Below, in pieces: positions 7,118 to 34,142 of a stretch of DNA of 36,756 nucleotides (position 1 is its first letter; the number at the start of each line of letters is the position of its first letter). Under the pieces are notes generated by a model that was not told the DNA's origin, did not search any database, and saw nothing but the letters and a program-made list of their open reading frames with translations. Source of the DNA: an uncultured Bacilli bacterium (GTDB lineage Bacteria > Bacillota_I > Bacilli_A > RFN20 > CAG-826); the NCBI GenBank assembly GCA_944350325.1, contig CALVOS010000098.1, forward strand, positions 1-36,756. The letters run 5' to 3'. A program made the translations under genes and the position numbers.

Positions 7118-7194
7118 GGCGGATGTGGTGAAGGGGTTAACACAACCGGCTGTGAACCGGTCATTCGCGGGTTCAACTCCCGTCATCCGCCCCA
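7118..7194 (+). tRNA. tRNA-His (GTG)
   Basis: All arms fold. The acceptor stem GCGGATG/CATCCGC is extended by the histidine-specific G-1 (7118) paired with discriminator C (7191), and CCA is encoded at 7192-7194. The anticodon stem ACCGG/CCGGT holds the loop CTGTGAA with anticodon GTG at 7152-7154. The T-arm is GCGGG-TTCAACT-CCCGT. The extra G-1:C73 pair is the main HisRS identity element. Confidence 0.96.
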
Positions 7195-32684: not shown

Positions 32685-32712
32685 TTGATGGGAAGGCTTC
32701 CGTTGGTATAAT
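32685..32712 (+). promoter_or_regulatory. Promoter of the unusual tRNA
   Basis: TTGATG (32685-32690) and the perfect TATAAT (32707-32712) are separated by 16 bases. A 14-base palindrome (AAATGC-CC-GCATTT, 32666-32679) lies just upstream. Confidence 0.65.
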
Positions 32713-32722
32713 CCGCTCCGCT

Positions 32723-32797
32723 TGGGGTGTAGTCCAGTGGTAAGGCCTTGGACTATGAATCCAAGATGCGCTGGTCCGATCCCAGCCCCGCCAGCCA
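32723..32797 (+). tRNA. Unusual tRNA: glutamine-type body with anticodon ATG
   Basis: The D-arm, anticodon arm (TTGGA-CTATGAA-TCCAA) and T-arm (GCTGG-TCCGATC-CCAGC) fold normally, and GCCA is encoded at 32794-32797. The 5' half (TGGGGTGTAG, CAGTGGTAAGGC) and the U1-A72, G2-C71, G3-C70 pairs with G73 are typical of tRNA-Gln. The anticodon at 32755-32757 is ATG, which would read histidine CAU; one change at position 34 from CTG or TTG explains it. Two acceptor-stem pairs mismatch (4-69 and 6-67). A real promoter and strong terminator flank it, so it is probably expressed. A decayed copy or sequence error is possible. Confidence 0.65.
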
Positions 32798-32807
32798 CTC
32801 AGGACAG

Positions 32808-32838
32808 AAGCCTATAGCCGGGCGCTATAGGCTTTTTT
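32808..32838 (+). terminator. Terminator after the unusual tRNA
   Basis: A perfect ten-base-pair stem AGCCTATAGC/GCTATAGGCT with a five-base loop is followed by a T run. Confidence 0.93.
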
Positions 32839-32883
32839 CATGCTCGGATGAGGGGGAGAAGCCTGTCCCTCCCGCCGATTGGA

Positions 32884-34089
32884 TCAAGCCCGGACGATCT
32901 GGAGAAGCACGTCCATCATCGTCCCGAAGTCCCGGAGCGAGAGGAACTCGTAGCGCCCGTGGTGGTTGTAGCTGCCTGTTCCTAGGTTCGGGCAGGGGCA
33001 CCCTAGGAAGGAGAAGGTCGCCCCGTCCGTCCCCCCGCGGATGGGGTTGCTCCTCGGCTCGAGCCCAAGGGAGCGGAACGCCTTTCTGGCATGCTCGAGG
33101 GAACGGGGGTCCCTCTTGATCACCTCGGCCATGTTGCGGTACTGGTCCTTGATCTCCAGGGAGAGCTTAGCGGCGGGATTGGCCTCCTGAACAGCCCTGA
33201 CGGCCTCTTCCAGCATCCTTTTCTGCTCCTGGAACTCCTTCCCGTCATGGTTGCGGATGATGTAGGAAAGCGTGCAGGAGGCGGCGCTTCCCTCCAGCGC
33301 GAGGGGATGGAAGAAGCCTTCCCTTCCCTCCGTCCTCTCGGGACGCATCCCTTCCGGGAGCAAGGCGTCCACCTCATGGGCGAGCCGGAGGGCGTTCACG
33401 AGCCTTCCCTTCGCCTCGCCGGGATGGATCGCGACCCCTTCGATCCGGATCTTCGCGGAGGCGGCGTTGAAGTTCTCCCAGTCGATCGCGAGAGGGTCGT
33501 CCCCGTCGACCGTATAGGCCCAGTCGGCGCCGAACTTCTTTGCGTCGAAGTGCTCCGCGCCCCGGCCGATCTCCTCGTCCGGCGTAAAGAGGATGGAGAG
33601 GGGGTGATGGGGGATCTTCTCCTCGAGGATCCTCTCGATCGTCCCCATGATGAGGGCGACGCCGGCCTTGTCGTCCCCTCCCAGGAGCGTCGCCCCGTCG
33701 GTCACGACAAGGGTGTCTCCCTCCCGGTTCCTAAGGGAGGGGAACTCCTCAGGGGACATGCTCGCCTCCCCAAGGGCGATCCTCCCCCCGTCGTAGTTCT
33801 CGATGATCCGCGGGGAGACGTTCGCCCCGCTTAGCTCGGAGGCGGTGTCCACATGGCTGTTAAGCCCGATCCGGGGGAGCCCCTTCTCTCCGGGGATATG
33901 AGCGTATAGCCTTCCAAATTCGTCGATTTCCCCGTCAATCCCCATCTCCTTTAGTTCTTTTTGAAGAAGAAGGAGGAGGTCCAGCTCCTTTTTTGCGGAA
34001 GGCGTTCCTTCGCTTCCCTCATCGCTCTGGGTGTCGATCCTCACGTAGCGGAGGAACCGTTCCAGGGCCTTTTCCACGTATTTTTCCAT
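32884..34089 (-). CDS. pepT: Peptidase T (tripeptide aminopeptidase)
   Basis: This 401-residue M20B metallopeptidase removes the N-terminal residue from tripeptides in the cytoplasm using two zinc ions. Family motifs are NSHVDT (His79, Asp81), GGDDKAG near 136-142, TPDEEIGRG with Glu171-172, TVDGDDP, HPGEAKG, GGTDGA and GTGSYNHHGRYEF, which are characteristic of PepT rather than other M20 enzymes. Length fits the usual 408 or so. The start at 34089 has AAAGGA about ten bases upstream. It diverges from pepC, so two steps of peptide degradation are neighbours. Confidence 0.93.
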   Translation of the reverse strand: MEKYVEKALERFLRYVRIDTQSDEGSEGTPSAKKELDLLLLLQKELKEMGIDGEIDEFGRLYAHIPGEKGLPRIGLNSHVDTASELSGANVSPRIIENYDGGRIALGEASMSPEEFPSLRNREGDTLVVTDGATLLGGDDKAGVALIMGTIERILEEKIPHHPLSILFTPDEEIGRGAEHFDAKKFGADWAYTVDGDDPLAIDWENFNAASAKIRIEGVAIHPGEAKGRLVNALRLAHEVDALLPEGMRPERTEGREGFFHPLALEGSAASCTLSYIIRNHDGKEFQEQKRMLEEAVRAVQEANPAAKLSLEIKDQYRNMAEVIKRDPRSLEHARKAFRSLGLEPRSNPIRGGTDGATFSFLGCPCPNLGTGSYNHHGRYEFLSLRDFGTMMDVLLQIVRA

Positions 34090-34142
34090 TGTCGATATCC
34101 TTTCCTGGCCTCCGCATCCTAGCACTTCCGCCCTCGTCCCGC

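Follow-up and report, generated by a model that had tools for sequence, protein, structure and literature searches.

The window, by which we mean the whole analysed stretch of 36,756 nucleotides, contains a tRNA gene at 32723-32797, for which both ARAGORN and Rfam RF00005 report the anticodon ATG. The gene lies between a uridine kinase family gene and a peptidase T gene, and a normal tRNA-His gene is also found in the window. The features considered here are as follows.

7119-7194, + strand: normal tRNA-His(GUG), 62.4 bits
31951-32610, - strand: uridine kinase family gene, the upstream neighbour, syntenic in the sister species; not part of a system
32685-32712, + strand: promoter-like site, sigma-70-like, TTGATG-16-TATAAT, with 10 of 12 matches and both hexamers identical in two sister species
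32723-32797, + strand: tRNA-Gln gene, very probably decayed; anticodon AUG at 32755-32757, 3' CCA encoded, mismatches at 4-69 (G.G) and 6-67 (U.C)
32755, + strand: canonical position 34 of this tRNA; A in the window, whereas all tRNA-Gln(CUG) of the genus have C
32807-32839, + strand: intrinsic terminator, stem-loop and U run; stem retained in the sisters, loop bases changed
32884-34110, - strand: peptidase T gene, the downstream neighbour, syntenic in the sisters, in which an insert of about 410 bp intervenes

The terminator, a perfect stem-loop with a U run behind it (-17.9 kcal/mol, z -3.9), was not reported by a consensus scan, probably since A-U pairs lengthen the stem into the U run. In the sister species, about 410 bp of AT-rich DNA lies between the tRNA terminator and the peptidase T gene, and this DNA is missing from the window at about 32846-32888.

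The covariance score of the window tRNA is 38.6 bits, which is above the RF00005 gathering threshold of 29 but below the 64.7 bits of its orthologue in both sister species (G018 and G032). It is the lowest-scoring of the 44 tRNAs in its own genome, the next lowest reaching 48.8 bits. With two acceptor pairs unpaired, the acceptor stem is incomplete, and the cloverleaf is no longer the predicted fold; the cloverleaf of the sister tRNA is about 8.6 kcal/mol stronger. A34 departs from the CUG anticodon of tRNA-Gln(CUG), and the hallmark of tRNA-His, G-1 with C73, is absent as well, there being a U before position 1 and a G at position 73. U1-A72, G73 and the absence of 20a, features relevant to GatCAB, are kept. 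An earlier note on this DNA had described a glutamine-type body with an A34 (AUG) anticodon, two acceptor mismatches, a promoter and a perfect terminator, together with a normal tRNA-His (GTG) in the window; these observations are all borne out, the glutamine-type body by the orthologues described below.

Orthology and derived changes of the tRNA

Over its full length, the window aligns collinearly with the two nearest relatives, G018 and G032, at about 84-85% nucleotide identity; both have a tRNA-Gln(CTG) at the same locus, and the two tRNA sequences are identical. The tRNA-Gln(CUG) gene is intact in both sister species and in most congeners, and nearly all other loci of the genus retrieved with the window tRNA as query are tRNA-Gln(CTG). 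Synteny makes the window tRNA an orthologue of tRNA-Gln(CUG) and so proves its glutamine ancestry, which does not depend on identity elements alone. The locus, the neighbours, the length, 69 of 75 bases, the promoter hexamers and the terminator stem are shared with the orthologue; in contrast, the window tRNA has AUG instead of CUG, two acceptor mismatches, changes in the D-stem and at position 26, and a score 26 bits lower. Loss of the gene in all relatives, which the earlier note had named as refuting its reading, is not what is seen; the relatives keep the gene intact, but with the anticodon CUG.

Six differences separate the window tRNA from that of the sisters (C11U, A13C, A26C, C34A, A67C and C69G). 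Other members of the genus share the sister state at these sites, except at A26, which is variable and is U in some; therefore, the six changes arose in the lineage of the window. Five of them affect sites without variation among the genus's 16 distinct Gln(CUG) sequences; four of these five sites are likewise constant across all 22 Gln tRNAs, and the changes in stems have no compensating partner. The other 43 tRNAs of the window genome, each paired with the most similar tRNA of G018, show 12 differences in 3365 positions (0.36%), against 6 in 75 (8%) for the window tRNA. This excess of about 22-fold (Poisson P 4e-7; 1.8e-5 when corrected for 44 genes), falling mostly on conserved sites and measured against the functional tRNAs of the same genome pair, is as expected of a tRNA pseudogene.

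Many apparently functional tRNA-Gln of the genus carry C55 in the T-loop (loop TCCGATC, e.g. L004:1617-1691), at a position that is nearly universally U in tRNAs. This base is common to the sisters and many congeners, and it was rejected as a sign of decay.

Glutamine charging and codon use

GlnRS was not found in the window genome, which has one GluRS, encoded on another contig than the window tRNA, and GatB; glutamine charging is therefore probably indirect, via GluRS and GatCAB. The earlier note had assigned the tRNA to glutamine from its body, G73 and first acceptor pairs. The assignment of ancestry stands on synteny, but U1-A72, G2-C71, G3-C70 and G73 are identity elements of GlnRS, the enzyme that was not found in this genome. 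For the GluRS of B. subtilis acting on tRNA-Gln, the main reported element is the modified U34 (PMC9976931). Because that enzyme relies on position 34, A34 should weaken charging of the window tRNA by GluRS. A dedicated synthetase was also considered and rejected, with a single GluRS and no GlnRS in the genome and none adjacent to the tRNA, whose neighbours encode uridine kinase and peptidase T.

A normal, intact tRNA-Gln(UUG), identical to that of the sister, is retained in the genome along with the normal tRNA-His(GUG), and no further, intact copy of tRNA-Gln(CUG) was found in the assembly, which is 94.6% complete in 108 contigs. In the congener G004, tRNA-Gln(UUG) is the only Gln isoacceptor in a 93% complete assembly. 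tRNA-Leu(CAG) and a second tRNA-Asp are also missing from the window genome; a wider loss of tRNAs was rejected as the explanation, the corresponding genes of the sister lying just past the contig ends here, and the absences are probably assembly gaps.

Codon use was compared between the window genome and G018 in 69 orthologous frames, which comprise about 23,500 aligned codons. CAU accounts for 182 of 404 His codons (45%) in the window genome and for 188 of 401 (47%) in G018, and of those 182 codons, 152 stand opposite His in the alignment with G018. CAG makes up 88% of the Gln codons in the window genome. Recoding of CAU was rejected on these data, since the codon is neither depleted nor shifted toward Gln and His is conserved at it. 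The proposal in the earlier note that the tRNA, if charged with glutamine, would put Gln at CAU codons accordingly finds no support.

Origin and fate of the AUG anticodon

From the comparisons above, the window tRNA very probably represents the tRNA-Gln(CUG) ancestral to the genus, on which selection has recently been lifted in this lineage and which is now becoming a pseudogene. Its AUG anticodon counts among six damaging mutations, without any indication of a changed reading of the genetic code. tRNA-Gln(UUG) presumably decodes both Gln codons; with a modified U34, it would read CAA and CAG by wobble, and the CUG isoacceptor would thereby be redundant. The locus may still be transcribed, but the product would fold badly, its charging by GluRS should be poor and it would probably be degraded; the AUG anticodon would therefore have little or no decoding consequence.

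Several observations count against decay. The promoter hexamers and the terminator stem are intact, which the earlier note had taken to suggest that the gene is not simply dead; the elements are indeed kept, but their retention is expected under recent loss, and they would still be intact because the release from selection was recent. Between the window genome and G018, the divergence of the tRNA (8%) is far below that at 4-fold degenerate sites (38%) and somewhat below that of the intergenic DNA just upstream (16%); therefore, either the loss is recent or some constraint remains, and on these figures alone residual constraint may be present. In addition, losing the cognate tRNA is not obviously free while CAG is still the preferred Gln codon at the frequency given above.

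Were the gene active instead, as a lineage-specific AUG tRNA-Gln that is still expressed and partly charged, the tRNA would be glutamylated and amidated, would read CAU, and would lead to low-level insertion of Gln or Glu in place of His; CAC or CAA would possibly also be read if A34 were deaminated. The retained GatCAB-relevant features (U1-A72, G73 and the absence of 20a), promoter and terminator are in line with such missense activity, and mistranslating tRNAs with A34 are known in Streptomyces (PMC11415595). However, the two acceptor mismatches and the damaged D-stem, the single GluRS with no dedicated synthetase near the gene, the loss of C34 in the face of the reliance of B. subtilis GluRS on position 34 (PMC9976931), and the unchanged CAU use and His conservation at CAU make missense decoding very unlikely, and low-level incorporation of Gln or Glu at CAU equally so. 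The same promoter and terminator could serve an RNA derived from the tRNA and retained for a role outside translation, as a regulatory hairpin, a tRNA-fragment precursor or an amino-acid donor. In an alternative hairpin at 32728-32757, which replaces the cloverleaf, new Watson-Crick pairs are formed by U11, C13, C26 and A34, which are four of the six derived bases, and among simulated random six-change mutants a 10-pair ungapped stem with three new Watson-Crick pairs arises in 0.17%, a statistic chosen after the fold was seen. However, at least four new pairs occur in 12% of the random mutants and at least three in one register in 8.5%, which is unremarkable, and the hairpin was noticed post hoc and is shared by no relative. 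The suggestion in the earlier note that the acceptor mismatches fit such a role is likewise not upheld for what appears as a lone, fast-decaying copy, the orthologue being intact in the sisters and most congeners, and we regard a non-translational role as very unlikely.

Template switching at imperfect palindromes is described as a source of RNA hairpins (PMC8794818), and it is a possible, not an established, source of the mutations in the window tRNA. As an explanation of four of the six changes, a quasipalindrome template switch is suggested by only one statistic of the simulation, a post-hoc one; however, the changes lie on both arms of the hairpin and therefore are not expected from one template switch. 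An artefact of assembly or sequencing might be suspected in a single, fragmented metagenome-assembled genome of 108 contigs. Yet the six substitutions are scattered and without indels, synteny is clean over 36 kb, and the other 43 tRNAs are nearly identical to those of the sister, so that an artefact appears very improbable. One misread base at 32755 would also not account for the gene, which differs at six independent places along its 75 nt although the surrounding region gives a clean alignment to the sisters.

As a pseudogene, the window tRNA would illustrate cleanly, and with a date, how a small high-GC genome loses a redundant C34 isoacceptor while still preferring its codon. It would also caution against invoking recoding for an unusual anticodon in a tRNA from metagenomic data until the syntenic relatives have been compared. 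An active gene would represent a mistranslating tRNA in the indirect Gln pathway.

Comparable tRNAs and observations in the genus

Bacterial tRNA pseudogenes and low-scoring atypical tRNAs (PMC8450103) resemble the window tRNA in scoring below 50 bits, in the conflict between anticodon and body, in stem mismatches and in the presence of an intact isoacceptor elsewhere; here, in contrast, the promoter and terminator are kept and the intact orthologue is known by synteny. The tRNA-ProX/ProRSx pair of Streptomyces and Kitasatospora (PMC11415595) likewise joins the body of one amino acid to an A34 anticodon of another. However, a co-encoded specialised synthetase of this type was not found in the window genome, whose one GluRS is on another contig, and the window tRNA is conserved in no relative, has damaged stems and gives no sign of an effect on codon use. 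Syntenic anticodon shifts in eukaryotic tRNAs (PMC3923123) are similar in that an anticodon substitution is detected by synteny between close species, whereas the window tRNA shows structural damage rather than covarying repair and is confined to a single lineage.

A conserved Gln-type AUG tRNA was not found among 37 genomes of the genus, nor was one whose body is nearly identical found in GTDB r220. With a first pattern, a Gln-type body with an AUG anticodon was found in none of 84,980 species genomes, a scan that may omit the window genome and those near it. A second pattern scan gave one match, a tRNA of a betaproteobacterial metagenome-assembled genome (L135:17-93, JABMMT010000015.1), with a Gln-like body, an AUG anticodon and an intact cloverleaf (61.7 bits), located upstream of prs. 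It lies 16 bases from the contig start in a fragmentary assembly, and among the 20 tRNAs found in that genome there is no other Gln tRNA. This tRNA is unrelated by locus to the window tRNA, and it is possibly an assembly error or a second case.

A true GlnRS is present in G010, G016, G026 and G034, and the other members of the genus, the window genome among them, are without one; GatB was not found in three of these carriers (G016, G026 and G034). This pattern points to a change in how Gln is charged within a single genus. The tRNA sets of G000 and G018 include tRNA-Ile(UAU), with only two CAU-anticodon tRNAs found in each, which suggests that AUA is read in these genomes without a lysidine-modified tRNA-Ile(CAU).
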